From Onthophagus taurus (Eukaryota; Arthropoda; Insecta; Coleoptera; Scarabaeidae): a DNA stretch of 64,000 nt. A program made the translations under genes and the position numbers. The stretch is taken from the NCBI RefSeq assembly GCF_036711975.1, contig NC_091972.1, forward strand, positions 4,841,001 through 4,905,000. Reading direction: 5' to 3'. The notes beneath the pieces are model-generated. The model searched no databases and was not told the DNA's origin. It saw only the letters and a list, made by a program, of their open reading frames with translations. Position 1 is the stretch's first letter; each line of letters opens with the position of its first letter. This document shows, piece after piece, positions 3,181-64,000 of the stretch.

Positions 3181-5790
3181 GTTGGACTAGTGTTAGTTCT
3201 ACTTTTAGTTCAATAAATATACCGGGTGAGGCATAATTGAGACGACCTTGAAACTCATAAACTATCAATTTTATAAAAAAAAGTTTCAGATAAAACTTTA
3301 TTATTCTGTATGGTTTTCATTGTATTGTAGAAGCGCCATCTAGGCCTTTCAATTGTTAAGTAAGTTTTTTTAAATGGATACATATATTTTTTTCATCACT
3401 ATACATCATATTTAAGTATAGTTAAGTAAGCATAACAACCTTGATATTTCTGGCTGCTTCTTCATAAACAAAGAACATTTCAATTTTTTTCAACAACCGT
3501 ATGTCTTTTCAAGCTTAATTAATGAAACGTAACGAATGAATTTGTAGCTAAGGGAAATTTTGATAGATATGGGTACTAAAACAACTGCCACCTGCTTTGG
3601 CCACCTTAATATTTCCAGAATACTTGATGTTAATTGTGGTGGTTCCTGGTTGCACCTTGAATTTGTATTGTCCGTAATGTTCATTAAATAAAAATATTTA
3701 TTTGATCAGGGAGAATACCATAGTTATGAAAAAAATGTATGTATCCATTTAAAAAAACTTACTTAACAATTGAAAGACATAGATGGCGCTTCTAAAATAC
3801 AACGAAAACCATACAGAATATTTTCCCCCTTCGTATTATGCAAGTCTTATCTGAAACGTTTTTTTGATAAAATTTATGGTTTATGAGTTATAAGGTCGTC
3901 TCCATTTAAATGCCTCACCCGGTATATAACAATCTAGCGCTGCATAACAATTAAAACTAGAACTAACACTAGACATAGAACTAGAAACATTCGTCTGAAG
4001 ATGCACGGCTAAACCCAAAAATTTTCTACTACTTGGTCTAGTGTTAGTTTTAGTTTTAGCACTGTTCCTATGTAGAACCAACACTATACATAGAACTAGA
4101 ATCATTTGAGTTTACCCGCACGTCTCTAAAAACTGCTAAACCCGAATGATTCTAGTTCTAGGTATAGTGTTAGTTCTAGTTTTACACTAGCACTGTTAAA
4201 GTGTAGAACTAACACTATACCTAGCACTAGAATCATTTGGGTTTAGCCGCACGTTAAAGACGGCTAAACCCGAATGATTCTAGCTCTAGGTCTAGTGTCA
4301 GTTCTAGCGACAGTGCTAGTGTAAAACTAGAACTAACACGAGACCTAGAACTAGAATCATTCGGCTTTAGCCGTCTTATAAGAAGCATGGCTAAACCCGA
4401 ATGTTTCTAGTTCTAAATCTAGTGTTAGTTCTAGTTTTGCACTATCACTAGAAATAACAGAAGACCTAGAACTAGGATCATTCGGGTTTAGCCGTCTTGA
4501 GAGACGTGCGGCTAAATCCGAATGTTTCTAGTTCTAAATCTAGTGTTAGTTCTAGTTTTGCACTAGCACTATCACTAGAACTAACTCAAGAACTAGAATC
4601 ATTCGGGTTTAGCCGTCTTGAGAGACGTGCGGCTAAATCCGAAACTTTCTAGTTCCAGGTCTAGTGTTAGTTCTAGTTTTACATTAGCACTTTTACTATG
4701 TAGAACTAACACTATACCTAGCACTAGAATCATTTGGGTTTAGCCGCACGTCTCTAAAAACTGCTAAACCCGAATGATTCTAGTTCTAGGTATAGTGTTA
4801 GTTCTAGTTTTACACTAGCACTGTTAAAGTGTAGAACTAACACTATACCTAGCACTAGAATCATTTGGGTTTAGCCGCACGTTAAAGACGGCTAAACCCG
4901 AATGATTCTAGCTCTAGGTCTAGTGTCAGTTCTAGTGACAGTGCAAGTGTAAACCTAGAACTAACACGAGACCTAGAACTAGAATCATTCGGCTTTAGCC
5001 GTCTTATGAGAAGCATGGCTAAACCCGAATGTTTCTAGTTTTTGGTCTAGTGTTAGTTTTAGTTTTGCACTATCACTAGAACTAACAGAAGACCTAGAAC
5101 TAGGATCATTCGGGTTTAGCCGTCTTGAGAGACGTGCGGCTAAATCCGAAACTTTCTAGTTTCAGGTCTAATGTTAGTTCTAGTTTTAATTGTTATGCAG
5201 CACTAGATTGTTGTATATTTTTATTATTGAATTAAAAGTAGAACTAACACTAGACCAAGAACTGGAATCATTCGGCTTTAGCCGTCTTATGAGACGCACG
5301 GTTAAACCCGAACGTTTCTAGTTCTAGGTCTAGTGTTAGCACTAGTTTTACACTAGCACTTTTACTATGTAGAACTAACACTATACCTAGCACTAGAATC
5401 ATTTGGGTTTAGCCGCACGTCTTTAAAGACGGCTAAACCCGAACGTTTCTAGTTCTAGGTCTAGTGTTAGCACTAGTTTTACACTAGCACTTTTACTATG
5501 TAGAACTAACACTATACCTAGCACTAGAATCATTTGGGTTTAGCCGCAAGTCTCTAAAGACGGCTAAACCCAAATGATTCTAGTGCTAGGTCTAGTGTTA
5601 GTTCTGGTATTACACTAGCACTTTTACTATGTAGAACTAACACTATACCTAGCACTAGAATCATTTAGGTTTAGCCGCACGTCTCTAAAGACGGCTAAAC
5701 CCGAATGATTCTAGTTCTAGGTCTAGTGTTAGTTCTAGTTTTACACTTGCACTGTCACTAGAACTAACAGTAGACCTAGAAGTTTTATTA
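3181..5790. repeat. Palindromic tandem array, GGCTAAACCCGAATG family (copy 1)
   Basis: The sequence is built from two alternating blocks in both orientations: GGCTAAACCCGAATGATTCT, and TTCTAGGTCTAGTGTTAGTT with variants. Blocks recur roughly every 120-130 bp and alternate with their reverse complements, so the region is a chain of inverted repeats. A 701-bp TIR element (3,222-3,922) interrupts it near the left end. Related copies lie at 29,677-29,769 and 60,250-61,185. Short open frames in it are by-products of the repeat. Confidence 0.9.
3222..3922. mobile_element. 701-bp long-TIR non-autonomous element inserted in the palindromic array
   Basis: The ends are CCGGGTGAGGCAT and its complement ATGCCTCACCCGG. 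The inverted similarity runs about 180 bp inward, including GACGACCTT, AACTCATAAAC, TAGATGGCGCTTCT-like and TCCATTTAAAAAAACTTACT blocks. It is flanked by TATA on both sides. Uninterrupted copies of the target exist near 5,205-5,235 (reverse strand) and 60,325-60,355, which supports TATA or TA duplication. No transposase is visible. Confidence 0.75.
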
Positions 5791-8640: not shown

Positions 8641-9209
8641 ATTTACGAATATTATAGCTACTAATTAAAAATGCGAAATAGTTTAAATTATTTATTGATT
8701 ATAACAGACAATCAAAGAAAACATAACAGTAAATTCCCAAATTCTACGCCCTACCAAAAATTCACAAAGTTAATATGCCAATTAGACCTATAATAAGCTC
8801 AATAAATTCAAGCATCTATCATCTAAATAAAATTTTACAAAAGTTTATGAGGAATAACATTAACTTCAAACCGGAACATACAATAAATAACAGAAACCAA
8901 TTACCAGAAATAATTAATAACTTGGAACTGCCGAATCACTTTAGAATGATTTCTTTTGACGTTAGCAATCTCTGTACTAACGTACCCATAACAGAAACTC
9001 TACTCATTCTAAAAAAACTTATAAAAACAGAAATCAATGGCGATACTAAAACCGAAAGTTTCCATAATTTATTCCAACTATGCCTACAACAAAACTTTTA
9101 TCTTTTTAATGGTAAAATTTTTCAATACAACGATGGCCTTCCTATGGGCTCACCTTTAAGTGGAACCATGATAAGCTGACCTATTCATGGATAATCTAGA
9201 GAAAAACTA

Positions 9210-10627
9210 CACTGTTGGAAATAATTCACGAGCGCACCCTGTATAATCTAAACGCGTGTGTCTAGCGCAATAAAATTTGGTATGGAAGTAGTACTAAAGT
9301 AGTGTAACTTACTCTTACATGGAGAGCGGCACAACTCTGCTGGGAGGAGAAACATCAATAGCGAGAGTATCCTCCGTGAGCTTCGCGTACCATCGCTACA
9401 CGACGTGGCATGGAGTCTATAAGTCGCTGTATTGTAGCAAGAGGGATGGCCAACCATGCCACCTCAACTCGCCTCCATAGCTCCTCAACGTTAGCCGAGG
9501 AAGCCGGATAACGTAAAAGTCTCCGACCAGTCATTTCCCAAACATGTTTGATCGGATTCAGATGCGGAAACCGAGGTAGCCATGGAAGCATTCGTGTACG
9601 GTGCTCTTCCACAAAGGTCTGTACAACACGCTAGATGTGCTGTCGTACGTTGTCGTGCATGTATAGCAGACCTGGGAGCCGCCGAACGTAGGGAAGCACA
9701 ACGGACCGTAGCACCTCATCTACGTATCGTTGACCCGTCATGGTCTGCTATACACGCAGCAGACGTGTACGTCCACCATGTGTAATAGCACCCCAAACCA
9801 TAATGCTCGGTTGTCGGTGGATAGGGCATTCTTGCACGCACCGCTCGAGTAGACGATCACCACGTCTCCGACGAACTAAAATTCGCGCATCACCGGTGCT
9901 CAATTCGAATCTTGATTCGTCGGAAAACAAAATGTCCCTCTACTCGTCAACCCACTAATGCCTAGCGTTGACCCACTCGTGACGTATGCTGCGGTGCTCG
10001 GATGTTACTGGAATCCGCTGTTTCGCACGACGCACGCGCAGTCCACTATGTACCAAACGCCGCCGTACAGTTCGCGTAGTGAGTGCGCCTTCCCCTGCCG
10101 GTGGCCAAACAGCTTCAAGTTGCCTTGAGGAGGACTCACACGACGCTAAAGCGCTAAGCACAAGTGCGCGATCCTCGTGTGCTGGGGTCACGCAGGGCCC
10201 TCCCGGCCGCGGCTGAAGGTAGCTATGTCCTACCTCAGACCATTCTCGCCATGCCCGTTGCACTGCCGATAACGACCGGTCGAGACGACGCGCAATTTCA
10301 CGGAACGATACACCCTCAATGTGCATACCCTCAAACATTCCTCGCTTAAGTAACGCGATCGCCCATCCATTGCGCACAGAGTACGATAACAATGTGGTTT
10401 CTCACACTACACTAAAAATGACCGGTATTTTCCATCCACTTCGGTCTCCATAGCGACGGAATGTTCCACTTGGAAGAGCGGCTCAGTCAACAATGCCGCG
10501 ACGGAACAACTCGAAACTTGATGAATACACTCGTCTACAGCAAACCTTTGTGCTCCGCAAATATCATGGATTTATCTTCACGCGTTCAGATTACATAGGG
10601 TGTGCTCGTGAATTATGTCCAACAGTG
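9210..10627 (-). mobile_element. Tc1-like DNA transposon inserted in the Penelope element
   Basis: The element is 1,418 bp and bounded by TA (9,208-9,209 and 10,628-10,629). The TIRs start CACTGTTGGA and read on as TAATTCACGAGC on both ends. The transposase runs on the minus strand from about 10,392 to 9,355. It has an N-terminal helix-turn-helix (SFREIARRLDRSLSAVQRAW), then LFSDESRFEL with the first catalytic D, SIMVWGAI, a second D in MHDNV, and PRFPHLNPIKHVWE. The expected catalytic E of PIEHVW is K here. Several stops and frameshifts (for example after NARH near 9,955) kill the gene. Confidence 0.9.
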
Positions 10628-14976: not shown

Positions 14977-17900
14977 CGTTCAAGTTAACCCATTAATTAC
15001 AGTATATTGGAAATAATTAAAAATTTTAAAACAGAAGTATATATTCTTTCTAATAAAGCACAAACTCATGGTACATAAACAGTTATTTCGAATGCGATGT
15101 TTTTGTTAACACAACATTCATGATAACTTGAAAACTAAAGACGCCATAAAAAACATAAATGGACTTATGGATAAAAATTGTTTGCAATTAATTACCATAA
15201 CATTATCCGGAAACATTTATAACCCGTTTTTGGGCATAAATTTGACATTTAACAACAAAGTTCCTACTATCTTTTATCTCAAAAATTATAAATTGTGGAT
15301 GAGGATGATATCAATAAAAATCGTTGATCCATCCATCCATACAACAGCGCCACAGTCCAATTCGGATCTTGGCCTCTTCTATTTTCCTCCTCTAGGCCGG
15401 TCTGTCCCTCGCTATCGATTTCCAATTATGCACCTGTAGTATGGTTCGTGCACTGGTCTTCCCACTGGTCGTCTGCCTTCAAGTTCCTTCAGATGCACTT
15501 TTTTGGCCACTCTTGAAACGTCCATTCTTTCTATATGACAGAATCTTTCTCTCGAAAGCATTTAGGTTTGATTCTGCCTTTTGTGACAGCGTCTAAACTT
15601 CACTACCATCGCATGGGGCTAGTCTTATAATTGTCTTATAAACGTTCAAGTTAACCCATTAATTACAGTATATTGGAAATAATAAAAAATTTAAAAACAG
15701 AAGAATATATTCTTTCTAATAAAGCACAAACTCATGATACATAAACAGTTATTTCGAAAGCGATGTTTTTGTTAATACAACACTCATGATAACTTGAAAA
15801 CTAAAAACGTCATAAAAAACATAAATGGACTTATGGATAAAAATTGTTTGCAATTAATCACCATAACATTATCCGGAAACATTTATAATCCTTTTTTGGG
15901 CATAAATTTGACATTTAACAACAAAGTTCCTACTATCTTTTATCTCAAAAATTATAAATTGTGGATGAGGATGATATTAATAAAAATCGTTGATCCATCC
16001 ATCCATACAACAGCGCCACAATCCAATTCGGATCTTGGCCTCTTCTATTTTCCTCCTCTAGGCCGGTCTGTCCCTCGCTATCGATTTCCAATTATGCACC
16101 TGTAGTATGGTTCGTGCACTGGTCTTCCCACTGGTCGTCTGCCTTCAAGTTCCTTCAGATGCACTTTTTTGGCCACTCTTGAAACGTCCATTCTTTCTAT
16201 ATGACAGAATCTTTCTCTCGAAAGCATTTAGGTTTGATTCTGCCTTTTGTGATAGCGTCTAAACTTCACTACCATCGCATGGGGCTAGTCTTATAATTGT
16301 CTTATAAACGTTCAAGTTAACCCATTAATTACAGTATATTGGAAATAATTAAAAATTTTAAAACAGAAGTATATATTCTTTCTAATAAAGCACAAACTCA
16401 TGGTACATAAACAGTTATTTCGAAAGCGATGTTTTTGTTAATACAACACTCATGATAACTTGAAAACTAAAAACGCCATAAAAAACATAAACGGACTTAT
16501 GGATAAAAATTGTTTGCAATTAATCACCATAACATTATCCGGAAACATTTATAACCCTTTTTTGGGCATAAATTTGACATTTAACAACAAAGTACCTACT
16601 ATCTTTTATCTCAAAAATTATAAATTGTGGATGAGGATGATATCAATAAAAATCGTTGATCCATCCATCCATACAACAGCGCCACAGTCCAATTCGGATC
16701 TTGGCCTCTTCTATTTTCCTCCTCTAGGCCGGTCTGTCCCTCGCTATCGATTTCCAATTATGCACCTGTAGTATGGTTCGTGCACTGGTCTTCCCACTGG
16801 TCGTCTGCCTTCAAGTTCCTTCAGTTGCACTTTTATGACCACTCTTGAAACGTCCATTCTTTCTATATGACAGAATCTTTCTCTCGAAAGCATTTAGGTT
16901 TGATTCTGCCTTTTATGACAGCGTCTAAACTTCAATACCATCGCATAGGGCTAGTCTTATAATTGTCTTATAAACGTTCAAGTTAACCCATTAATTACAG
17001 TATATTGGAAATAATTAAAAATTTAAAAACAGAAGAATATATTCTTTCTAATAAAGCACAAACTCATGGTACATAAACAGTTATTTCGAAAGCGATGTTT
17101 TTGTTAACACAACACTCATGATAACTTGAAAACTAAAGACGCCATAAAAAACATAAATGGACTTATGGATAAAAATTGTTTGCAATTAATCACCATAACA
17201 TTATCCGGAAACATTTATAACCCTTTTTTGGGCATAAATTTGACATTTAACAACAAAGTACCTACTATCTTTTATCTCAAAAATTATAAATTGTGGATAA
17301 GGATGATATCAATAAAAATCGTTGATCCATCCATCCATACAACAGCGCCACAGTCCAATTCGGATCTTGGCCTCTTCTATTTTCCTCCTCTAGGCCGGTC
17401 TGTCCCTCGCTATCGATTTCCAATTATGCACCTGTAGTATGGTTCGTGCACTGGTCTTCCCACTGGTTGTCTGCCTTCAAGTTCCTTCAGATACACTTTT
17501 TTGGCCACTCTTGAAACTAACATTCTTTCTATATAACAGAATCTTTCTCTCGAAAGCATTTAGGTTTGATTCTGCCTTTTGTGACAGCGTCTAAACTTCA
17601 CTACCATCGCATGAGGCTAGTCTTATAATTGTCTTATAAACGTTCAAGTTAACCCATTAATTACAGTATATTGGAAATAATTAAAAATTTAAAAATAGAA
17701 GAATATATTCTTTCTAATAAAGCACAAACTCATGGTACATAAACAGTTATTTCGAAAGCGATGTTTTTGTTAATACAACACTCATGATAACTTGAAAACT
17801 AAAGACGCCATAAAAAACATAAACGGACTTATGGATAAAAATTGTTTGCAATTAATCAACATAACATTATCCTTAAACATTTATAACCCTTTTTTGGGCA

Positions 17901-19638
17901 TAAATTTGACATTTAACAACAAAGTACCTACTATCTTTTATCTCAAAAATTATAAATTGTGGATGAGGATGATATCAATAAAAATCGTTGATCCATCCAT
18001 CCATACAACAGCGCCACAGTCCAATTCGGATCTTGGCCTCTTCTATTTTCCTCCTCTAGGCCGGTCTGTCCCTCGCTATGGATTTCCAATTATGCACCTG
18101 TAGTATGGTTCGTGCACTGGTCTTCCCACTGGTCGTCTGCCTTCAAGTTCCTTCAGATGCACTTTTTTGGCCACTCTTGAAACGTCCATTCTTTCTATAT
18201 GACAGAATCTTTCTCTCGAAAGCATTTAGGTTTGATTCTGCCTTTTGTGACAGCGTCTAAACTTCACTACCATCGCATAGGGCTAGTCTTATAATTGTCT
18301 TATAAACGTTCAAGTTAACCCATTAATTACAGTATATTGGAAATAATTAAAAATTTAAAAACAGAAGAATATATTCTTTCTAATAAAGCACAAACTCATG
18401 GTACATAAACAGTTATTTCGAAAGCGATGTTTTTGTTAATACAACACTCATGATAACTTGAAAACTAAAAACGCCATAAAAAACATAAACGGACTTATGG
18501 ATAAAAATTGTTTGCAATTAATCACCATAACATTATCCGGAAACATTTATAACCCTTTTTTGGGCATAAATTTGACATTTAACAACAAAGTACCTACTAT
18601 CTTTTATCTCAAAAATTATAAATTGTGGATGAGGATGATACCAATAAAAATCGTTGATCCACCCATCCATACAACAGCGAAACAGTCCAATTCGGATCTT
18701 GGCCTCTTCTATTTTCCTCCTCTAGGCCGGTCTGTCCCTCGCTATCGATTTCCAATTATGCACCTGTAGTATGGTTCGTGCACTGGTCTTCCCACTGGTC
18801 GTCTGCCTTCAAGTTCCTTCAGATGCACTTTTTTGGCCACTCTTGAAACGTCCATTCTTTCTATATGACAGAATCTTTCTCTCGAAAGCATTTAGGTTTG
18901 ATTCTGCCTTTTGTGACAGCGTCTAAACTTCACTACCATCGCATAGGGCTAGTCTTATAATTGTCTTATAAACGTTCAAGTTAACCCATTAATTACAGTA
19001 TATTGGAAATAATTAAAAATTTAAAAACAGAAGAATATATTCTTTCTAATAAAGCACAAACTCATGGTACATAAACAGTTATTTCGAAAGCGATGTTTTT
19101 GTTAATACAACACTCATGATAACTTGAAAACTAAAGACGCCATAAAAAACATAAACGGACTTATGGATAAAAATTGTTTGCAATTAATCGCCATAACATT
19201 ATCCGGAAACATTTATAACCCTTTTTTGGGCATAAATTTGACATTTAACAACAAAGTACCTACTATCTTTTATCTCAAAAATTATAAATTGTGGATGAGG
19301 ATGATACCAATAAAAATCGTTGATCCACCCATCCATACAACAGCGAAACAGTCCAATTCGGATCTTGGCCTCTTCTATTTTCCTCCTCTAGGCCGGTCTG
19401 TCCCTCGCTATCGATTTCCAATTATGCACCTGTAGTATGGTTCGTGCACTGGTCTTCCCACTGGTCGTCTGCCTTCAAGTTCCTTCAGATGCACTTTTTT
19501 GGCCACTCTTGAAACGTCCATTCTTTCTATATGACAGAATCTTTCTCTCGAAAGCATTTAGGTTTGATTCTGCGTTTTGTGACAGCGTCTAAACTTCACT
19601 ACCATAGCATAGGGCTGGTCTTATAATTGTCTTATAAA
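14977..19638. repeat. 666-bp tandem array, exactly seven units
   Basis: The unit begins CGTTCAAGTTAACCCATTAA at 14,977, 15,643, 16,309, 16,975, 17,641, 18,307 and 18,973 and stops cleanly at 19,638, so 4,662 bp is 7 x 666. The units differ by a few substitutions and no evident indels. Each holds a 103-codon plus-strand open frame. The minus strand of the unit instead reads as the decayed 3' part of an RTE retrotransposon (YKTIIR, ESNLNAFERKIL-like, EGRRPVGRPVHEP-like pieces). The last unit runs into more of the same element at 19,639-20,064. Confidence 0.95.
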
Positions 19639-24457: not shown

Positions 24458-24819
24458 GTGATTATAAAATCAAGGTATGATAATTAATTACCTGCAATAT
24501 TTTGGTATTGAAACTTTTTTAAATTTCTCACTCCAGAGTTTAGAGATTTTTCACCTGGTTTGTAACAAAATCGGTAATTTTAACTTTTGCGGGGCCGTTA
24601 TCGGTGATTTTTCTTATTACGCAACAACTTATTACTTAAAATTCTTTAAATATACAAAAAAATTTGTTATCGTTTTTGAAGGAAAAACTTAATTGTTGAA
24701 AAGAATTTATTTTTCCATTTTTTGTTAGTTATTTTTCACTTAAATGGTTGGAACAATTCCAAGTATAAATTAGAAAGCTAATGTTTGTAATTTAAACTTA
24801 AAAAAAAACTTGCACAACG

Positions 24820-25336
24820 ATGTTAAACTTTGTGCTATCTTTGTTAATCATTACAAGCTTCGTTGACTCAAATCCAATGAGTCCCCAAGATCTTTTAGAA
24901 AAAATTAAACCTAATTTCGAGGTAAATTCTTAATTATTTTTAGAATAAACAATTATTGCGAATCTAAGAATTTTAGATGGCGGAAAATGCAACTCAAAAT
25001 CAACCTGAATTGAGTGACGCCCACGAAAAAATTAACGACCTTTCCATAGCCATCGCTTCAATGTCCGCCGCTGAGAAGAAATTGAAAACTGAACTTCAAA
25101 CCCTCCACAGCAACTTAGATGAGCTCTTAAACGAAGCTAAGAACTCCGAAGAAAAAGCTAAAAAGGCCATGGTTGATTCCTCAAGATTAGCCGATGAACT
25201 CCGCGCGGAACAAGATCACGCCCAAACCCAAGAAAAACTCCAAAAAGCCCTCGCAAACCAAATTAAAAATCTCCAACTTCGTGTGGAAGAAGTCGAGGCT
25301 AAATTGGAGCAAAGGAGACTCGCAAAATGTAACTAA
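24820..25336 (+). CDS. Small chimeric gene: signal peptide joined to a muscle myosin heavy chain rod fragment
   Basis: Two exons (24,820-24,921 and 24,977-25,336) join in phase 0 across a 55-bp intron (GAG|GTAAAT ... TTTTAG|ATG) to give 153 residues. Exon 1 encodes a hydrophobic leader (MLNFVLSLLIITSFVDS) and SPQDLLEKIKPNFE, so the product is probably secreted. Exon 2 is almost entirely coiled coil and closely matches the light meromyosin rod of insect muscle myosin heavy chain: DAHEKINDLS, ELQTLHSNLDELLNEAKNSE, EKAKKAMVD, RLADELRAEQDHAQTQEKL. It ends in a divergent QRRLAKCN tail with a single Cys. No myosin motor or further rod exon is nearby. A TATA-like GTATAAAT lies about 55 bp upstream. 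An AATAAA occurs at 25,433. A perfect 12-bp inverted repeat with a 4-nt loop (25,342-25,369) starts just after the stop. The open frame is intact. A non-secreted reading from the exon 2 ATG (119 residues) is the alternative. The function is unknown. Confidence 0.7.
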
Positions 25337-25341
25337 TTAAT

Positions 25342-25369
25342 AATCGAAATGATCATAATCATTTCGATT
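25342..25369 (+). terminator. Perfect hairpin in the 3' UTR of the myosin-rod gene
   Basis: AATCGAAATGAT, loop CATA, ATCATTTCGATT: a 12-bp perfect stem five bases after the stop codon. Whether it acts on the mRNA is unknown. Confidence 0.5.
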
Positions 25370-25459
25370 CAGATTTAGAAGACAATCTTTTATTTAAAAA
25401 TCGAACGTTATGTTAGACGATTTCAATAATTAAATAAAAAAGATTATGGAAGGATTTGA

Positions 25460-27740
25460 AAACGATTTTACAATAACATAACCTCACATGTCAAAGTACA
25501 ATTTTTTTAGTAATTTTAATTTATTTAAGGTTGGCGGATTTGAAAAATGACAATCTTGTAAAATCTATTAATTTAAAATTTTAAAAAAACTTAAATTTTT
25601 AACAAAAATCTTCACTTACCATTCACGAAACGTACAAATATCGCTTTCTTGCGGTTTATTACCCGATATTAGCAACAAGAGTTATTTATTTTAAGAAAAA
25701 ATCTCACTTTAATTTAAACGCGACAAAAACGAACCCAATTACAACAATAACATAACCTCAAATGTCATTTTTTCATATTCTAATTTACTTAAGGTTGGCA
25801 GTCAATCGGTGTTAAGTTGAGATATGTCTAGGAAATTTTATTTTAATAAAATTTTTTTAAAATAAATGTGATTTATGATATTGTTTAAACCATTAAAATC
25901 AAATCTCATTTAGTAAGTAATGAGAATAGAATCATTAAAAGTATAAATTTAAAATTTTAAAAAATTTTGATTTTTAACAAAAATCTTCACTTACCTTTCA
26001 CGAAATGCACAAATATCACTTTCTTGTAGTTTATAACTCGATATTACACAACAAAACTTATTTATTTTAGGAGAAAAACTCACTTTAATTTAAACGCAAC
26101 CCAAACAATTTCAATCACAACAATAACATAACCTTAAATGTCAAATTGCAATTTTTCTATATTTTAATTTATTTAAGGTTGGCAGTCAATCGGTGTTAAG
26201 TTGAGATATGTCGCGGAAATTTTATTTTAATAAAAATTTTTTAAATAAATGTTATTTAGGATATTGTTTAAACCATTAAAATTAAATCCCGTTTAGTAAT
26301 TGATGAAAATAGAATCATTAAATGTAAAGATAACTATAAATTTAAAAATTTTAATTTTCAACAAAAATCTTCACTTTCCTTTCACGAAATGCACAAATAT
26401 CACTTTCTTGCGGTTTATAACTCGATATTACACAACAAAACTTATTTATTTTAGGAGAAAAACTCTCTTTAATTTAAACGCAACCCAAACAATTTCAATC
26501 ACAACAATAACATAACCTTAAATGTCAAATTGCAATTTTTCTATATTTTAATTTATTTAAGGTTGGCAGTCAATCGGTGTTAAGTTGAGATATGTCGCGG
26601 AATTTTTATTAAAAAAAAATTTTTTAAATAAATGTTATTTAGGATATTGTTTAAACCATTAAAATCAAATCCCATTTAGCAAGTGATGAGAATAGAATCA
26701 TTAAAAGTATAAATTTAAAATTTTAAAAAAATTTGATTTTTAACAAAAATCTTCACTTACCTTTCACGAAATGCACAAATATCACTTTCTTGCAGTTTAT
26801 AACTCGATATTACACAATAAAACTTATTTATTTTAGGAGAAAAACTCTCTTTAATTTAAACGCAACCCAAACAATTTCAATCACAACAATAACATAACCT
26901 TAAATGTCAAATTGCAATTTTTCTATATTTTAATTTATTTAAGGTTGGCAGTCAATCGGTGTTAAGTTGAGATATGTCGCGGAAATTTTATTTTAACAAA
27001 AATTTTTTAAATAAATGTTATTTAGGATATTGTTTAAACCATTAAAATCAAATCCCATTTAGCAAGTGATGAGAATAGAATCATTAAAAGTATAAATTTA
27101 AAATTTTAAAAAAATTTGATTTTTAACAAAAATCTTCACTTACCTTTCACGAAATGCACAAATATCACTTTCTTGCAGTTTATAACTCGATATTACACAA
27201 TAAAACTTATTTATTTTAGGAGAAAAACTCTCTTTAATTTAAACGCAACCCAAACAATTTCAATCACAACAATAACATAACCTTAAATGTCAAATTGCAA
27301 TTTTTCTATATTTTAATTTATTTAAGGTTGGCAGTCAATCGGTGTTAAGTTGAGATATGTCGCGGAAATTTTATTTTAACAAAAATTTTTTAAATAAATG
27401 TTATTTAGGATATTGTTTAAACCATTAAAATTAAATCCCGTTTAGTAATTGATGAAAATAGAATCATTAAATGTAAAGAAAACTATAAATTTAAAAATTT
27501 TAATTTTTAACAAAAATCTTCACTTTCCTTTCACGAAATGCACAAATATCACTTTCTTGCAGTTTATAACTCGATATTACACAACAAAACTTATTTATTT
27601 TAGGAGAAAAACTCTCTTTAATTTAAACGCAACCCAAACAATTTCAATCACAACAATAACATAACCATAAACGTCAAAGTGCAATTTTTTTTATATTTTA
27701 ATTTATTTAAAGTTGGCAGTCAATCGGTGTTAAGTTTGCT
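25460..27740. repeat. 383-bp AT-rich tandem array, about six units
   Basis: The unit block AAATCTTCACTTACCTTTCA recurs near 25,608, 25,982, 26,366, 26,746, 27,129 and 27,513; the inner spacing is about 383 bp, and 26,300 to 27,449 is exactly three units. Shared blocks include GGTTGGCAGTCAATCGGTGT and TAAACGCAACCCAAACAATT. The first and last units are diverged or partial. Short open frames inside it are repeat by-products. Confidence 0.93.
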
Positions 27741-29908: not shown

Positions 29909-31678
29909 TAGTAGACACCACGAGAGCTGGCAGTAAATCATCGTTTTCCGTTCTTACAAATGAAATACGTAGTAAATTAAAATTCACAAACCGTGAAACC
30001 GTGAACATTATGTGTTAGAAAGAGATAGCATTAGTTTAATATGTCTGCTGTACAATTCAAATAGCCACGTCGAAAAAGTACGTCTGTTCTTTTAAGGGAT
30101 GTCACTCTATAATTATAACCTGAAATTGAAACGTCTTCTGAGCGTTGTCATGAATTTGTTGACATTTTTAAAAGCCGAAAATATGTTTTCTTTGAAAGGA
30201 AAATCATTAAATAAAAAATCTATGATGATGTTTATGAATGTTTTAAATTATTTTCGGCATACATACGCGAATGAAGGAGACACTAGAAACTTAGAGAAAA
30301 GTGCTACTGCTTGCGGAATTTCCGTAAGAACCACTTATCGAATCAAAAATCGAGTTGAAACCGCATCATTAGAAGGAACCTCTGCATCCTCACCCCAAAA
30401 AACACGTAATAGGCAAAAAGTAAGGTCGACTGATATTGATGACTTTGTGAAAGACCCCATACGTCGTAAAATTTATACAAACCACAATACACTACTTCCT
30501 GTTACTGTAAAATGTCTCAAAGAGGAGCTTCGTGAAAACAATGTCTTCAGTTTTTCAGCTACTAGCCTAAGACGGTGCTTGAAGTCTATAGGATTTACAT
30601 ATACCATTGACAATAATAGAAGAGGTTTGATGGAGCAACCGCATATTATGTCTTCTCGTGCAAAATTTTTGAGACTATATGGAAAATAAGACTGAGGAAT
30701 AAGACTTCTTGCTGAAGGTTCAGCAAGAAGAAGTTGGCATGATGACAATAAAGAATCTATTAGAAGAAAAAATTGAAGGAAAAAGATATATTGTTCTGCA
30801 TGCTGGTAACAGCGAAAGATTTATTGAAGGAGCAAATTTATTGTTTGTACCTACTTCAAACAAAAAAAAAAGTTGATTATCATGATAACATGAACGCTAA
30901 TTTATTTAAAAAATAATTTACAGAACAATTGCTGCCAAACTTAGAAAATCTTAGTATAAGCTTAATCTTAGCTAAAGATGCCCAAGTTACCCAAACGTAT
31001 GAAATTGATGAATTGGCGAATGAGTGGGGCCATAAAGTGTTTCGATTGCCACCTTATCATTGCCAATTCAATCCTACTGAATTAGTTTGGGCAAAATGTA
31101 AACTTTTTTACAACCAGCATAGTAATAGAGATGGATATGGTGATGATAAGGTTTTGGCAATGTGGTCAGAGGCTTTGTCACGCGTAAACGCAGAGGAATG
31201 GCGTCATTACATTAATCACGTTGAGAAAGAAATGGAGTCTTTCTGAGTATTACAAATCATCTGGAAAGAGTGCAGGCGCCATTAATTATTAATTTAAATC
31301 AGGAGAGCAGTGATGATGAAGAGGCTGATATGGACTAATTATAAATATTAAATAAAAATTATTAAATATTAAATATGAATTAAATATTAAATTAATTTAT
31401 TAAATATTGAATTAATTTATTAAATATTAAATTAATTTATTAAATATTAATTATTATTAAATAAATTAATAATTACATAAACTTTATTATAAATTAATAT
31501 AAACGTTTTTTCGCTGGTTAACCTCTCCTATCTTTGACAATGTTTGACATATAACCTCTATTACTAACATAACCTACATTCAAATGTATGTGGTGAAATA
31601 ATCTAAGTCGTACGTCCATATCTTGATTCATACGATTTTTAAACGTCAAGTCACTGCCAGCTCTCGTGGTTTCTACTA
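29909..31678 (+). mobile_element. Tc1/mariner (IS630-type) transposon, degenerate, clean TA insertion
   Basis: The element is 1,770 bp. The left end TAGTAGACACCACGAGAGCT and the complement of the right end, TAGTAGAAACCACGAGAGCT, form a 26-bp TIR with one mismatch, with TA duplicated on both sides. The plus-strand transposase is in pieces. 30,099-30,689 has the helix-turn-helix part (TACGISVRTTYRIKNRVETA, LRRCLKSIGFTY). After a frame break comes RYIVLHAGNSERFIEGANLL (about 30,780). 30,929-31,246 has EIDELANEWGHKVFRLPPYH and QFNPTELVWAKCK with the third catalytic acid. The stretches that should hold the first two catalytic Asp (DE..Y and MDNA.YH types) are missing, so the gene is inactive. Confidence 0.88.
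31340..31500. repeat. AT-only minisatellite inside the Tc1-like transposon
   Basis: Repeats of TATTAAATTAATTTATTAAA with few changes, in the 3' part of the nested transposon. Confidence 0.8.
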
Positions 31679-35761: not shown

Positions 35762-36755
35762 TTAAACTCCAACAATATATTTATCAGCTTGATACAATTC
35801 ATAAGCAAATTCTTCTCTATGATCAGGATCAAATTCAACTCCAATGTATTGTACCTCTAAACTGAATGGACCATTGACTTTATCACCTAAACTAATACTA
35901 AAATTAGTCACTTTGTCAGTTGCTAAAGGAAATTGTCGATCTTGAATACGCCCTTTTGATGATAAAAAGAACTTTGAAAATGGCAACTAAAAATAAATAA
36001 CAATTAACATAAACATATATTATTTATAATCTGTATTACCCTTGTAACTTGCCAATAAGGTCCCCCCCTCGTATACAAAACATAACTATAAACATCATTC
36101 CACATAAGATCATAATAACCTCTTGTATGTATATTTATAATGTAAGATCGCCCGTCTCCCCTAACTTTCATAACTAACATATTATAAGCGGTCCAATCCA
36201 AAAATGCTTCTCTTTTAAAAGATTTCTAAATGATCAATCATAATTAATATGATTATATAACCAAAAAAATCTGTAAGTACTTACTCTATGTCGGACTGTT
36301 TTAATATTGCAATAACCAGCTCTTTTAATGCGCCCATCCTTAGGCACTCTAGTATCCAAAACACCACTAAAAAGAGCATTTTTATTTTGATCTAAAGTTA
36401 AACTACATTTACTATATCCCTCGTTATTATCGCTATCGCTGGTAACGACCCATTGCTTTAAAGACTCTTCATCGGGAAAATCCCAAACAACGTCGGTTTC
36501 ACCAGATCTAAACACTATAAGAGGATCATAATCAAAGCGATCTTTCACTTCTTCAGTCCACAATTTAATTTCCGATTTAAGTTCTTTAAAACCTTCCCTT
36601 ATAAACTGCGTGGTTGAAGGTTTTTTTCTATTATCTTTATAACCACCTTTGTCGTCCGATTCATGGAATAAACCCATCAAACGCTGAGTAGTGGGGAAAT
36701 AATTAAATTGGGACGAATTCTTTAAAAGTTTAAACGTTAATTGTCGAGGAAACAT
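35762..36755 (-). CDS. NDUFAF1: Complex I assembly factor CIA30 (NDUFAF1)
   Basis: Three exons (36,755-36,285; 36,225-36,040; 35,986-35,762) give 293 residues. The first about 40 residues are basic and Ser/Thr-rich, as expected of a mitochondrial targeting sequence (MFPRQLTFKLLKNSSQFNYF). The CIA30 domain fills the C-terminal two thirds: VVWDFPDEESLKQWVVTSDS, GYSKCSLTLDQNKNALFSG, GYCNIKTVRHR, then AYNMLVMKVRGDGRSYIINI, DVYSYVLYTRGGPYWQ, LPFSKFFLSSKGRIQD, and FSISLGDKVNGPFSLEVQYI near the end. NDUFAF1 is a chaperone of the mitochondrial complex I assembly (MCIA) complex in the inner membrane. Length and introns fit a functional gene. Confidence 0.95.
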
Positions 36756-37204
36756 TTTGACTTATTTGAGGTTATATTGATGTAATTTTGAGGTTATATA
36801 ATTTTTATTTTATTCAATCATTTATTATTCTAAAATAAATATTACCATTTAAATAACTTAATTTATTATTAACTAGGCATTATTAAAATCTTCAAAATGT
36901 TATTTTATTATTATTGAACGAAAGAATTAATTTTTTGGCTTATTTGAGGTTATGTTGATGTAATTTTGAGGGTATATAAAGAACCTTGAATCTTTTTGAT
37001 TATTTTGATCAATTTAATAACTTTTTCCTTTGATGATAATGTTAGTTTATTGATTTAAAATTAGGGTTTATTTTAAATGTACAGAAATCATTTGCGTTCT
37101 TTATTATTAATCTAACTAATTAACACCTTATAAACAAAACTTATTGACAATCTTTGAAAAAAATATTAAAAATAATCCTCACAACATTCAAACACACATA
37201 AAGC
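36756..37204. other. Intergenic spacer between NDUFAF1 and TFIIA gamma
   Basis: AT-rich. It contains NDUFAF1 upstream sequence, and the phrase TTATTTGAGGTTATRTTGATGTAATTTTGAG occurs twice (near 36,763 and 36,940), suggesting a short duplication of promoter DNA. Confidence 0.4.
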
Positions 37205-38222: not shown

Positions 38223-41200
38223 CTAGGACTGTTTCACCGTTCGCTTCCCTTTCACAATAACCGGCTTATCTTTTATAGATCCCTTTTTTCGCTTCGAATT
38301 CTAAAAATGAAACCAAATTAAAAGTAATAAAATAAATTTATTCAAAATTAACCTTCTTAGATGATGCACTTGAAGTTTTTACTAGCCGACTAGCTACCGG
38401 TATTCTAGGTCTGTTAAATTCATCAGGTTTTTTAACTCTACAAAAAAATAAAATTTCATTAAAGTGTAAATTAAAAAAATTTTTGGTTTAAAGTTACCTG
38501 TATATCCTCACTAACCAATGTTCAGTTGTATAAGCCTCTTCTAAATAAGTTAACGAAAAATCTTTATTACCTATAACGGTATTTCGAGTTCTATCATAGC
38601 CAGCAGCGCTACGATAATCCAATTTGAATTCGCCAAATCGATAGTAACTCAATTTGTACATCAAACAGTTGAGCAAAGTCGGCGATCCATGAACATCAAC
38701 TCTAAATTCCCCATTTTCCGTAAAATAATCACTTTCCCTAATCTCTTTGGGATGCTCTCCTTCCGCAATCCTCACCATCCACAAAAACTTGTTAATATCA
38801 TCACCAGAATATCCAATAACCCCTCCAAATATCACCAAAACATAATCAACATCAAGAGATGTCATTATATCGTAAGCGGCACTTTCATTTGAAGACATCG
38901 CCTTTCCAACTAACGCTATATGACTATTATTCCACGTGTTATTATCAACCAGAGTCGTCCGATTAGCCATTCCAGCTATTTGATAACCATAATCCCACCA
39001 ACTCATTATGCGAGCATCATCGCCGGTATTTTGAGATAACCAAAAGTAAGCTTCCCTGAAATCATCGAGAATTTGTCTCGACCCATCGCCACCATAAGAT
39101 GCCAAAACGACACTTGGACTTGAATATGCATTACTGGTAACCCAGGTACAATGTACAGCAAAGAGCATTAAAAGCAACATGATTATAACCAAAATTATGC
39201 TGCGTAAATTTGGTCCAATTGCATCTGATTCGCGTTGTTGTTGCTCGTGTTTCATTTTTGGTACACGACCCGCCTATAAAAATTTAAAAAATAACTAAAG
39301 AAAATGTTTCTAAATTATTAACTGGTTACTTTATCATAGAGTTTACTTCCAGAGCTGCTTTCTTCGACTTCTTGGCCGTCGGTTTCCGAGATAACCTCTT
39401 CTTTAAAGAACAAATCCAATAACCCAGAAAATGCAATTCCACTTAACACACAAACCACGGGTGTTAAAGTCAACATCAATCTCACCATAACCCCAGCGAA
39501 ATAAACAGCGCTCAAAGCGTACAAAACAACTAAAATTAAATTGATTAGATGTAGACTTAAAAAAATTATAATCATTTACCGAATACTCTTTCGTCGTTTA
39601 TGTTTTTAATGCAGTACCAAAGACCGGCTGGAAAAGTAGTTACCAAAATGTGTAAATCAAAGAAAAATGAGAACCATGTTGTGGGTTGATGTTCCGAAAC
39701 GGAAGCTATAATGGGAATGTGAATTTTAGCGTAACCCGTATCCCATAAGGAATAGAAACGACCACTCCAAGGAGCAATGTAACCCGCGTAAGTAAGAACA
39801 ACAACCGATAAAAACACAACCCCCGCAGCACTTAGTACACCAAAAATAAAGATGGATTTAAATTCGGATTTTGAAAGAACGCTTTGAAGATATTTCAAGA
39901 CAGCAACTGCTACTGATAAAGCAAAAACACCTAAAAAAAGAAATTAATTAATTTAGTTTTTAAACGAGGTTTTTTTTAAGTTACCAGAAGCTGCCATATG
40001 TTCACTTGTTCGAATTGGTTGGAATCCGACGAAAGGAATTTGCATAGATAGTAATAATCCAAGAATATAGAAGGTGGTGTAACTTGTAAACACTTTATTG
40101 GAGAATCTTCCCATTAAAATTAAAACGAAAACGTGAAGTGGGATTAAATTTATGATGAAAACATATCCACCCCATGCTGACACCTAAAAATTATGATATA
40201 AATAATAATAATGGTGTACTTGGAAACTTGGAAATCTTGGAAAATTGTAGAGACTTGCAGTAAAAAATTTAATAACTAAAGTGGCTAAGAGAAAATTCTC
40301 GAAATTAGTTTCAGGTTTCTAAGATGCCGCTAGGGGGCGCAAGCGCCATCTTGAATTAGAAAATGCAACTTTTCTCGAAATTCCGCTATATTAACATAAA
40401 AAGGGTATGCCTTTTAAAGCTTATATCCCACCTTATTTGAAGTGATTGTAAGTTACTGCATCGGCACAAGAGGGCATTTTTCGATATTACAATACAGTAC
40501 GTTTTTTTCTATAATACCTGTCAAATTGTTGTAAAGTTGGCAACATTAACAGGGAGTTTTGTTTTATCACGTTTTGAAATAAATATGTCACATTGACGTT
40601 TATTTGAGCTTTCCTTATTCAAAAAGTCAAAAGAAGGAATAAGAATGGTTCTGAATTACGCAAACGGGTAAAAGACGATGATTATGACGATGTTTGGTTA
40701 ACATTAAAATAAAAAGTGAAGGAGACAGGTTTACTGTACTACATGCAGGTTACAGAGGTGGCTCTTTAGAACATTTCTTGTTACTTTTACAAGACGATGA
40801 GTTTCCAAATCTTTTAAACTTGGTCAACAAAAATCTAATTGCAGCAGTGCAAAATTTATCTGGCAAACATGTAGTGATAATGGATAATGTGCCCTATCAT
40901 TCCTCAAAGAAAAACACCCACGCGAACATCAAAGAAAATTGTTTTAATGCAATTTTTTATCCAAATAATCTAAATCATGCCATTTTTGCAGCAAAATACA
41001 AAAAGATATGTCGTCGATGATCTTCTTCTGCAGAATAATCTTGAAGTGTTGTGACTTGCTCTTTATCATTGTAAGCATAATGCAATTGAACTAGTTTTGG
41101 GCCTATTGCAAGACCTATTATAATAAACATATCAACGATGTCCTTCAAAGAGAAAAATCGTGACAGTAAGGTGTGGGATACTGCTTTGTTAAATTGTATA

Positions 41201-44200
41201 GCAGAATTATTGAACAACTGTATAAATCACGTTAAAAAGTTAATTGAAAAAGAGTGGCATATTCATATGGGTAATACTTCCTTTAAAGATCTTCCTCCAT
41301 TCATCATAAACTTGAATATGATGCATAAAAAATGTTTTGGGGTGTTTATTTGCGATTTGTTTACCTACAAAAAGGTGTTTTGTTCTATACAATTACTTTG
41401 TAGCACGTTTTTACAATAAATATGTACTTCGTTAAAATCGTATTTATCTAACAATGTATTAGTATTTTAACCTCAACTATTTAGTTACTGAAAATGTTAC
41501 TAAAAATCAGGAGAACAACATACATTTTATAAGGGTCCTAGGTAATACCAACAGAAACCCTAAAAATTTACCTTGCCAAGTATTATACATAGAAAAAAAA
41601 GAACTATAGATATTGTGAATTTTATTAGAAAAGTTAAATCTTTAGTATTACTTTCTTTTCACAAAAAAACTGTAAAATGAATCCCAAGCAAGCTAGTGAA
41701 AACCGTACCTCGATTTCATGTTCCTAACCAAAAATATCATTGAAAGAAGATTATATGAATAAATTCAATAGATTTCACTCAGTTTTTTTTTACATTTTTT
41801 AAAGTGCCTTAGTTTAGAAGATACTTCACCTCACTTTTGAGAGGTGTTTGTTTTTTAGTCCATTTAGAAGTGAAAATTTGGCATATTGACAAAAATAAAC
41901 ATAATTTTAATCACATAAGAATTGTAAAACCAACTACTACTAATTGCCCCAAAGAAATTATCTCGGGCTTCTAAAAATTTGTTTAATGCCTCCTTAAATA
42001 CTCAAATTGGAATCCATCACGTTCTATTAATTGCTGGAGCCTCTCTTGCGTAGAAAAAACTCCACCTTAAATTTCTGCTCTTGGAAGGTTGTGAAAGGTC
42101 TTGTCTTTGAAACACCATTAACCACCCCCATAAATAAATATTCAAACAAGTGTGGGGATCTGGGTGGCCATGGAAATAGGCTTTTCTAAGAAAACTCACA
42201 ATTTCTATTGTAACATCGAAAAATGCGCTCTAGTAGCAACATACCAAATTGCAATCACCACAAATAAGGTAGGATTTGTAGTCCAAGAAAAACTCTTTTC
42301 AACGTTACCAGGCTTATTAAATTTCGTTCAGCCATTTTGAAATTATTGACATTTATTCACAAACATTTTCTAACCACCTTTATTTTAAAAGATAGGACAA
42401 AAAGTGTTTTAACAAAAAACACTATAACTTTTCTAAACTTTAAATTGCACATACTTTTTTGTTGTGTTAATACGGTGGATTTCCTAGAAAAACCACATTT
42501 TTTAATAAAATTCAAGATGGCGGTTGCGCCCCCTAGTGATCATCTTAGAAACTAGAAAATAATTTCCAGGATTTTCTTTTAGCTACTTTAGTCGTTAAAT
42601 TTTTTAACGCAAATCTCTACCAGTAGTAGCCGAAATACAGTACTTTGCACGTTTATTTAGCCAGCCTGTATAAAAAAAATTTCTTACCATGTAAAAATAG
42701 GATAAAGCGGTCATACAAGCCCAAAATATCGAGCCAGTCTTGACGGATTTTACCCATAGAAAATAAGTAAATTGTAAGGCGAAAATAGCGATCCCCTCAT
42801 TGTCATAACTGCCAGCTACAGATCTACTGATATAACCAGGTACTATGGCAATGAAACAAGCAGCGAATAAACCTGCCCCTTTTGACCATAATTCTTTGGT
42901 CAATAAATATGTTGAAATTGCGGTTAGTCCACTGAAAAATTTAAAACAAATTAATATATTAAAGGGAATTAAACTTGAATAGATAAAGAAAAAAATGGAT
43001 TTAACACATTACATAACAAACGTTTTTTAGGTTTTATAAAAGCTTATATTGTGGTTGTTCTCAAAGTATCTAAAGTTGCATTATTTAGGACTTTGTATAA
43101 ACTTTCAGCAGTAGCTGATGTTTAACCTAAGGTTATATCAAATTTGAAGTTTCCAATACAAATAGTTTTTTTGGTAAATATGTTTAAAAATCGCCAATTT
43201 GAATTTTCTTGAAAGTGAGGTTATAAAAGTTTTTCATCAAATTTATTTAGATTTAATTAATAAAACTTTTCGAGGTTATTAAAGGCTGTTTGTGGTGAAG
43301 TTATGCGTAATTTTAAGTTTCCAATGTAACCAGTTCTTTTTATAAAAATGTTTAAAAATCACCAATTTGAAATTAACATTTATTGAAAATAAGGTTAAAT
43401 AACTTTTTATTCTTTTTTACTATTTCAATTAAACTACCTCAGCTAGTTTTGAAGTCGTCAAACAATGTTTTAGTACATTTTTAATCATTTGAGAATCTAT
43501 TTCATCAAAAACAACTTTAATTGCGGTTTATAAAACCTCAACCGCCTCTAAATGATTAAGTTAACATTTGTAATTGATAAATCCCATAAATAAATAATAA
43601 TCTATCAGAAACAAATTGAAACTATGAAATAAAAAATCAGTTAAGATGGTATATTAATGATCAGCATTGAATGTTAGCCTGAAAAAATGCCAATTATCAC
43701 ATCATTTTTGATGCATTAGCTTGTAAATTGGCACATATGGATTTTCACAGCCCTAAATATGACAGTTTTACTTTTTTACATTTCCAAGATGGATTGCTGG
43801 ATAAAATAATCCATTTAGAATTACAAAAATATGTTGTCTTCATGTTGAAATAGTTACTCCACTTGAAATTAATTCTATTTGTTATTAATTATCACTACTA
43901 ATATCAAATCAACATAGAATATATACTTAAATTTTAAAATGTGTTCTTTATATCAATCTTATTCTTTATCTAAACGTTTGATAATTTGATAATGTTTTTA
44001 TACAAATAAACTTATCATTGAACAGAAAGTTCAATAAATTGACTTACCTAAAAATGGGTGCTAGAAAAACACAAATATCCCTAATATGAACATTAATATG
44101 TAACAAATGTAAGAAATAATGAATAGTCCCAGAAGTGAGCATCAACCCAGGATAAACGGTTCCACCAACAATCCTTCCCAAAGGGTACCAGGCTCGTTCA

Positions 44201-45008: not shown

Positions 45009-46142
45009 ATGTTAATTACGCTAACTTCTAAGACTACAAAGTCTACAATTTCAAAATTTCGTAACACTTGTAAATATTTTTGGAGTAAAAAACGGTGAGT
45101 AAACATTTTTTCTTATCATATTTTATTTATCATTCACCAATTCTTTCTAAAAATTAACAGTAATTTTGGAGAATATGCTCTTGTAGAGCCTGCATTTGTA
45201 ACAAAAATGAAACCTGTACCTATTACAATAAGAAAACCTGATTATTACAAATCAGGATCAACTATGATTACACCTGAAGAGCCTGAAATCAAAAATGCTA
45301 AACAAATCCAGCGTATGAGGGAAAGTTGTAAATTAGCTGCACAAATTTTAAATAAAATTGGAAAATTTATTCGAGTATTATATAACAAATAATTTTAAAA
45401 AAATAACATGTATTATCTAATTCATTTAAGTTTATAGGTGGGAATTACAACGGACGAGGTTGATTCATTTGCTCATAATTTAATAATTGCAAATAGAGCT
45501 TATCCTTCTCCTCTAAATTATAAACAATTTCCAAAATCGATTTGTACATCTGTTAATAATGTGGCTTGTCATGGTATACCAGATTGCAGACCCCTTTTGG
45601 ATGGAGATATCATTAATGTAGATGTAACAGTGTTTTTTAACGGTTATCATGGAGATTGTTCAAAAACTTTCTTAGTAGGAAATGTTGATCAATTTGGGAG
45701 AGACTTAGTTAAAGCTACCGAAACCTGTCTTTATCAAGGTATTTCCGTTTGCAAGCCAGGCGAAAGATTTTCAACAATTGGGCAATGTATTGAAAGGAAA
45801 GCATACCAATTTGGATATTCAGTTGTACCATGTTTTGTTGGTCATGGAATTGGGAAATATTTTCATGGTCCCCCAGATATTTGCCATTTTGGTAATACTT
45901 AAATTTTGAGTACATTAATTTTAATGTTCTGTTGGTTTCAAATTTTAGCTAATTACAATAATGAAACTATGGAACCAGGAATGACGTTTACTATTGAACC
46001 TGTTTTATCACAAGGCTCACAAGAAATTACTATTTTAGAAGATGGCTGGACTGCTATAACTACTGATGGTGCTAGAACTGCACAGTTTGAACATACCGTT
46101 TTAATTACTCAGACAGGAGTGGAAATTTTAACTGAAGAATAA
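45009..46142 (+). CDS. METAP1D: Mitochondrial methionine aminopeptidase 1D
   Basis: Four exons (45,009-45,094; 45,161-45,374; 45,438-45,891; 45,949-46,142), in phase, give 315 residues. A basic, Ser/Thr-rich N-terminus without acids ([20 protein letters not shown]) fits a mitochondrial presequence. The type I pita-bread fold is complete: [19 protein letters not shown] with the substrate His, [17 protein letters not shown] with two metal-binding Asp, [14 protein letters not shown] with the metal His, MTFTIEP and AQFEHTVL with the two metal Glu. It removes the initiator Met from mitochondrially made proteins. The short divergence from cytosolic MetAP1 (no zinc-finger N-terminus) supports the 1D type. 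An AATAAA overlaps the stop codon (46,138-46,143). Confidence 0.95.
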
Positions 46143-63933: not shown

Positions 63934-64000
63934 CTTAAATAACAATTTCATATTAATAAACGAAACTGATAATAAAAACTTAAATTATAGTATATTATTA
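63934..64000 (-). other. Intron of the wit-like gene, window end
   Basis: AT-rich sequence upstream of the acceptor at 63,934-63,935. It is the intron that continues beyond the window. Confidence 0.6.

Follow-up and report, generated by a model that had tools for sequence, protein, structure and literature searches.

A small two-exon gene in Onthophagus taurus, most likely a lineage-specific chimera in which a ready-made gene front meets a muscle myosin rod segment

The stretch of DNA under study (the window) spans 64,000 nucleotides of the Onthophagus taurus genome (C7:4841001-4905000), and all genome searches were performed in the window's own assembly of 290.8 Mb in 33 contigs. Positions prefixed L010 refer to the region of the muscle myosin heavy chain gene (Mhc) on contig C5, where L010:4849-5147 corresponds to C5:4526849-4527147. 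On its plus strand the window holds a compact putative two-exon gene, below called the chimera, in which sequence from two sources meets. These are a host gene, represented by one relative elsewhere on C7, and Mhc as the donor. The features of the locus and its immediate surroundings are as follows.

24564..24626, minus strand: decayed remnant of a small gene of secreted type (by eye resembling a lipocalin), in divergent orientation to the chimera
24666..24744, plus strand: promoter-proximal block, 81% identical over 79 bp to C7:24515665-24515740 (E 1.5e-10), also found upstream of the C6 copy of the neighbour gene
24763-24770, plus strand: TATA-like box GTATAAAT; in the alignment the relative has a TATA box too
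24820..24921, plus strand: exon 1, 34 codons with the ATG at 24820; a hydrophobic leader, then MSPQDLLEKIKPNFE
24922..24976, plus strand: GT-AG intron of 55 nt in phase 0, equal in length and phase to the relative's
24977..25336, plus strand: exon 2, open until the TAA at 25334-25336
24977..25003, plus strand: 5' junction, the first bases of host exon 2 running into a short match to DNA downstream of Mhc
25004..25302, plus strand: light-meromyosin segment of Mhc, 99 codons that keep the Mhc frame, with 0 indels; 259 of 299 sites identical to L010:4849-5147
25303..25336, plus strand: 3' junction zone, where 33 bp of Mhc are missing in frame between GCTAA repeats and the sequence then jumps downstream
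25310..26184, plus strand: DNA duplicated from downstream of Mhc (L010:6695-7603), with 747 identical sites among 846 aligned and 17 indels
25342..25369, plus strand: hairpin with a perfect 12-bp stem and a 4-nt loop, fold z -4.2
25433-25438, plus strand: poly(A) signal AATAAA, within the copied donor DNA
25566..27736, no strand assigned: tandem array of 5.7 units of 383 bp, related to sequence downstream of Mhc

From the ATG at 24820, located 50 bp downstream of the TATA-like box, exon 1 reads MLNFVLSLLIITSFVDSNPMSPQDLLEKIKPNFE. As a preliminary description of this gene had proposed, the GT-AG intron joins the two exons in phase, and the spliced product of 153 residues has a frame that is open throughout, with no stop before the TAA at 25334-25336. 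If left unspliced, the exon 1 frame reaches a stop at intron codon 4, and the first codon of exon 2 is itself an ATG. The TATA-like box, the poly(A) signal and the perfect 3' hairpin of that description were likewise all found, at the positions given above.

Elsewhere in the window, ordinary genes are located at 36234-36761, 45438-45902, 38494-43008 and 61693-63934; Pfam identifies CIA30 and Peptidase_M24 among them, and inspection by eye adds an STT3-like oligosaccharyltransferase and a receptor serine/threonine kinase. At 15110-19435, an open frame of 109 codons (YNTHDNLKTK...) occurs seven times at exact 666-bp steps, forming a coding-length tandem array. Remains of mobile elements lie at 8733-9179, 9955-10401 and 30096-31246, and among them are a reverse-transcriptase-like piece (a weak Pfam match, Penelope-like by eye), the helix-turn-helix of a Tc3-type transposase, and a transposase that by eye is mariner-like. 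A palindromic satellite (CTAGAACTAACACTAGACCTAGAAC...), built of 121-131-bp units and matching its own sequence in either orientation, is present on several chromosomes. Its sites include 4024-5781 and 60269-61104 of the window, C5:4496614-4496967 and, by eye, C6 near 4250560-4250760. Outside the window, C1:21446788-21448128 carries a COX1 sequence within a 44-Mb contig. Read with the invertebrate mitochondrial code, it stays open for 527 codons between stops, so that either mitochondrial DNA was inserted here very recently or the join was made in assembly.

We compared exon 2 of the chimera with solved structures using phmmer and obtained matches to 8u95_A (residues 1699-1802, E 3.3e-36) and 7kog_B (E 2e-35), both of which carry the name myosin heavy chain and which we take to be Drosophila Mhc and Lethocerus Mhc, respectively. 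In the genome, exon 2 has a single close relative, C5:4526837-4527148, with 76% protein identity, and at the DNA level it is 87% identical to the beetle's own Mhc over 301 bp (C5:4526847-4527147). A third genomic match, on C1, is distant (29%). The donor exon on C5 is rod-coding, with 305 open codons, and further rod exons lie upstream of it. These comparisons bear out the earlier assignment of exon 2 to muscle Mhc light meromyosin and the claim that part of Mhc had been copied, and the phase-0 join to 99 codons in the Mhc frame does the same for the claimed in-frame fusion with a leader-bearing exon. Like muscle Mhc light meromyosin, the chimera has 99 consecutive in-frame residues, encoded at 87% DNA identity, over which the heptad register of Mhc is retained. 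Unlike muscle Mhc, it has neither motor nor neck domain, amounts to ~5% of a heavy chain, is cut at both ends and is fused to a non-myosin exon. In Pfam, Myosin_tail_1 matched the product at 20.1 bits, under its gathering cut-off of 38.1, and the best model for the whole product, NET2A (a coiled coil), scored 26 bits, under a cut-off of 33.1.

High identity to Mhc is also what would be expected if exon 2 simply belonged, as a normal exon, to a longer myosin gene, and we considered whether this could be the case. The Mhc locus and its other rod exons are situated on another contig, C5, and the myosin similarity in the window is bounded at 25002 and 25302, with other sequence on either side, which leaves this reading with practically no probability. 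Within the coding part, the DNA match between the window and the Mhc region is confined to 25002-25302, and the gene ends at 25336. A second C5 match starts 1.5 kb further downstream, is ~0.9 kb long and lies past the last Mhc exons (exons read by eye); it runs on into repeat units that are tandemly arrayed in the window. A retrocopy of Mhc mRNA, inserted beside a leader exon, would agree with a copied Mhc part that lies inside one exon, and because it does so, intron loss is uninformative either way. Since homology continues for 0.9 kb past the last Mhc exons and into repeats, it argues for duplication at the DNA level and against a retrocopy. No poly(A) tract was found at the end of the Mhc match in the window, and we rejected the retrocopy as a very improbable origin. 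A dispersed repeat as carrier of the downstream block was also discarded for L010:6540-7220, which in a genome search that skips very common words matched C5 and the window only, besides two 35-bp matches. With the source of 25310-26184 restricted to C5 and the window, the Mhc segment and the downstream DNA would most simply have arrived as a single block that lost its middle by internal deletion. Judging from the alignment, the hairpin, whose parent in the C5 DNA has an 11-bp stem and a 6-nt loop, and the poly(A) signal are inherited from DNA downstream of Mhc and were not assembled for the chimera.

At the 5' junction, 24979-25001 matches L010:6703 at 19 of 23 positions, compared with 14/23 on the same strand and 15/23 on the other strand for the next best matches in 10 kb. 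Because these bases both match DNA downstream of Mhc and resemble the start of host exon 2, a short common motif joins host and donor here. At the 3' side, the 33-bp deletion removes 11 codons, and the jump into downstream DNA takes place at CAAAGG and supplies RLAKCN plus the stop; 14 bp are missing just past this jump. Two routes fit the letters at this end, namely a direct jump after the LEQ codons, or an extra 39-bp in-frame deletion between GAACAA repeats preceding it. Since the joins coincide with short matches, they suggest that the junctions were formed by replication template switching at microhomology.

The 5' side of the chimera matches C7:24515665-24515919, in the same order and on the same strand. 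The relative at this site (C7:24515665-24516217) is a small two-exon gene, in which MSDKDILEKIKAFLENQDIHQNITSNNLQ is followed by a 55-nt phase-0 intron and then by MVENTTHRPDF..., the stop following after 64 codons. The window aligns with this gene at the TATA box, the intron ends and the exon-2 start (ATGGTTGAAAACACAACTCA in the relative, ATGGCGGAAAATGCAACTCA in the window), and the relative's promoter block is 83% identical to C6 over 72 bp. When 24745-25001 was aligned with the relative, the score was 138, as compared to a mean of 88.5 (sd 8.1, max 120) for shuffled sequence (n=2000). Homology of exon 1 itself rests on 37 bp in the correct order and strand, with 32/37 identical bases at 24876-24912 (genome-wide E 0.003), and the last 15 residues of exon 1 show 60% identity to the start of the relative's protein. 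Gapped alignments pair exon 1 differently from the BLAST match, and exon 1 is therefore the weakest of the homology links. Altogether, the chimera appears from these alignments to reuse a ready gene front made up of promoter block, TATA box and splice layout.

When the genome was searched for a third member of the host family, using exon 2 of the relative, a single weak candidate came up on C11 (23%, E 3, interrupted by a stop), and tblastn over 51 records returned the C11 locus again (25%, E 0.027) and otherwise the window and the relative only. The C11 locus was not accepted as a family member because its match is so weak. Against Pfam, the relative gave one match, which was below the cut-off and unconvincing. 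The residues PQDLLEKIKP had raised the suspicion that exon 1 derives from an odorant-binding protein, an idea rejected on position and on Pfam. Up to E 10, Pfam returned nothing for exon 1. Of 43 scored candidates, 34 were PBP_GOBP matches in the genome, and the ones located on C7 are at 1.2 and 16.6 Mb, with the window at 4.84-4.91 Mb. There is a dense cluster of PBP_GOBP (odorant-binding-protein) matches at C7:16581173-16677237.

Upstream of the chimera, the decayed minus-strand fragment (CCVIRKITDNGPAKVKITDFV) matched the copy at 24.5 Mb of C7 with a tblastn E of 0.002 when nothing but the window was searched, and local alignment of 24481-24760 with a copy on C6 gave a score of 150 (shuffled mean 68, sd 7.6, max 95; n=500). 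The copy near the relative (C7:24516500-24516895) is broken, with an in-frame stop in its leader. The C6 copy (about 4251818-4252430) is open, with 167 residues in three exons chosen by eye; the one TAA that its unspliced match counts is located beyond the chosen splice site, and its upstream region carries the block common to the host gene's promoter. Membership of this neighbour gene in the lipocalins was a by-eye assignment that we did not retain beyond the label lipocalin-like, as it had no Pfam match to E 0.01 and no match to a solved structure to E 5.

Two donors, the junctions between them, an open frame and a common splice layout are demonstrable for this locus. From the alignments, we regard a chimeric origin at the DNA level as almost certain, and a lineage-specific chimeric gene as the most likely identity of the locus. 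In the scenario that we propose, a block from the 3' end of Mhc on C5, comprising part of one light-meromyosin exon and DNA beyond the gene with ~1.5 kb lost between them, would have been joined into exon 2 of the small two-exon gene on C7 via short matching stretches, presumably by microhomology template switching, and the myosin piece would have replaced the remainder of host exon 2. From the host would thereby have come the promoter with its TATA box, exon 1, the intron and the opening bases of exon 2, whereas 99 coiled-coil codons, the stop codon and a 3' region with the poly(A) signal would stem from the donor. If transcribed from the host promoter, the locus would yield a short spliced mRNA, whose product may undergo Sec-dependent entry, cleavage near residue 17 and secretion. 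The mature part is predicted to form a short parallel two-stranded coiled coil of ~14 heptads; because it is too short and lacks the parts for filament building, it would probably serve as a dimerised spacer or binding rod, and not as a myosin.

The hydrophobic leader claimed for exon 1 in the preliminary description is indeed there. It passes a home-made signal-like rule, which differs from SignalP, and has a plausible cleavage site. Among ATG frames of at least 30 codons, however, 59 of 529 pass the same rule in 124 kb of genome (both strands), as do 41 of 612 in DNA shuffled in two-base blocks, so that the chance rate of signal-like frames is 7-11%. The leader alone is no more than chance yields, and it counts for something because of its position shortly after the shared TATA box, which is no proof. 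The relative, the sole one found, lacks a leader: its frame opens at the equivalent of chimera residue M20, with an in-frame stop 13 codons upstream, and the leader-coding part is missing or altered. Given a leaderless relative with an in-frame stop upstream of its ATG, the earlier claim that the myosin segment was captured by a secretory leader does not hold as the founding step. The start of the relative at the M20 equivalent, together with the ATG that opens exon 2, would also fit a coding gene without secretion of its product. Begun at either position, translation would give an intracellular coiled coil that could dimerise with the myosin rod or with others. This is opposed by the location of the longer frame's ATG 50 bp past the TATA-like box and by a leader that passes the simple rule, and we consider such a product unlikely. 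If the locus is coding, secretion of its product is plausible and has our preference.

We then asked how the open frame compares with that of a neutral copy. Relative to Mhc, the 99-codon copy has 40 differences, 0 indels and 21 changed residues, with Ka 0.10 and Ks 0.35. The dN/dS comparison with the source Mhc exon, proposed earlier as a check, did not reject the neutral-copy model, as 22.5/40 differences were nonsynonymous versus 65% expected for a neutral copy beside a constrained parent (P 0.11-0.19). The first half holds 11 replacements; set against two insect rows, 8 of them are derived in the copy and 3 are not polarisable. When neutral copies with 31 changes were simulated, the frame stayed open in 26-33% of runs (17-39% over nine settings). 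The actual replacements were more conservative than in these neutral copies, with a mean BLOSUM of 0.52 versus -0.14 to -0.29 (P 0.008-0.015 with 31 changes; 0.001-0.030 over nine settings). Using the register that fits the parent best, the a/d core of the coiled coil was more hydrophobic than both the neutral core and the parent's (2.11 versus 1.74; P 0.012-0.017), one example of a core-position change being N to I. Frame-shifting indels number 0 in the 99 codons versus 13 in the 846 downstream aligned sites, for which the chance probability is 0.010 by site, 0.017 per substitution and ~0.10 when only the copy's half of the downstream change is counted. The tests of replacements, core and frameshifts are not mutually independent, and the neutral simulations lend modest support to a maintained frame.

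The differences from Mhc, previously described as spread out, turned out to be clustered, with a nearly unchanged centre between diverged ends. Their density is 15/54 (28%) at 25004-25057, 10/70 (14%) up to 25127, 3/114 (2.6%) up to 25241 and 12/59 (20%) up to 25300, and the first 238 bp of the noncoding copy differ at 18/238 sites (7.6%). The longest identical run measures 58 bp (P 0.004 under uniform scatter), and within 25130-25240 two neighbouring codons differ, both Ala to Ser. This patchwork suggests either that Mhc later converted the copy or that errors or mutations came in a burst near the joins at copying, and divergence this uneven weakens every one of the maintenance tests.

These results bear directly on the possibility that the locus is a chimeric pseudogene, in which the fusion took place as proposed but the frame has stayed open by chance, with neither a product nor selection. 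A dN/dS consistent with neutrality and a neutral open-frame survival of 26-33% at matched divergence both speak for it, as do the decay of the adjacent divergent gene, the stop in the leader of that gene's copy beside the relative, and the fact that the locus abuts the 383-bp tandem array. The coding part is nonetheless without indels, its replacements are conservative and its hydrophobic core is kept, while promoter block, TATA box, splice sites and phase agree with the relative. We consider a pseudogene a substantial possibility, with somewhat under an even chance, and put the chances that the locus is still a maintained coding gene at roughly even. The best explanation overall, to which we give even odds as well, is a chimeric gene formed by DNA-level duplication and encoding a small, possibly secreted coiled coil. 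More tentatively, and with a lower probability, the product could be a selected secreted protein derived from the muscle myosin rod, for which the host gene gained, or alone kept, a signal peptide and later changes strengthened the hydrophobic core.

Chimeric genes that arise by DNA duplication are an already known kind. In Drosophila, jingwei, Sdic and Quetzalcoatl are lineage-specific fusions of pieces of two genes whose expression has been shown, and Sdic and Quetzalcoatl arose by DNA duplication; to our knowledge none of the three uses muscle myosin. The chimera resembles them as a lineage-specific fusion of two genes, but theirs are expressed and ours is known as a sequence. In the notothenioid antifreeze glycoprotein gene, a leader-bearing 5' part is combined with a different coding body, and both the origin of its leader and its secretion are known; the leader of the chimera, in contrast, is absent from its only relative. 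A gene family of Schistosoma japonicum shares a similar core promoter and signal sequence, was spread by DNA-level recombination and is found in one species only (PMC3434034). The parallel with this family lies in a DNA-level mechanism with sharing of promoter and signal; the family is dispersed and its expression was shown, whereas the chimera is a single fusion with a conserved muscle gene, described from its DNA. Among the matches listed in the open-licence literature, there was no earlier report of a leader-bearing muscle-myosin chimera, which is weak evidence of novelty, and the open-licence literature on coiled-coil silk gave no match.

For this gene, two parental loci were identified, the donor on C5 including DNA outside the gene, and the host relative on C7. 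Because donors, junctions and host relative are all contained in one genome, the steps in the birth of a chimeric gene are directly traceable here, from a DNA copy taken from past the end of a gene, through joins at short matches, to the reuse of a ready promoter and splice layout. If its product is made and secreted, a highly conserved rod of the muscle filament would have been reused outside the cell.
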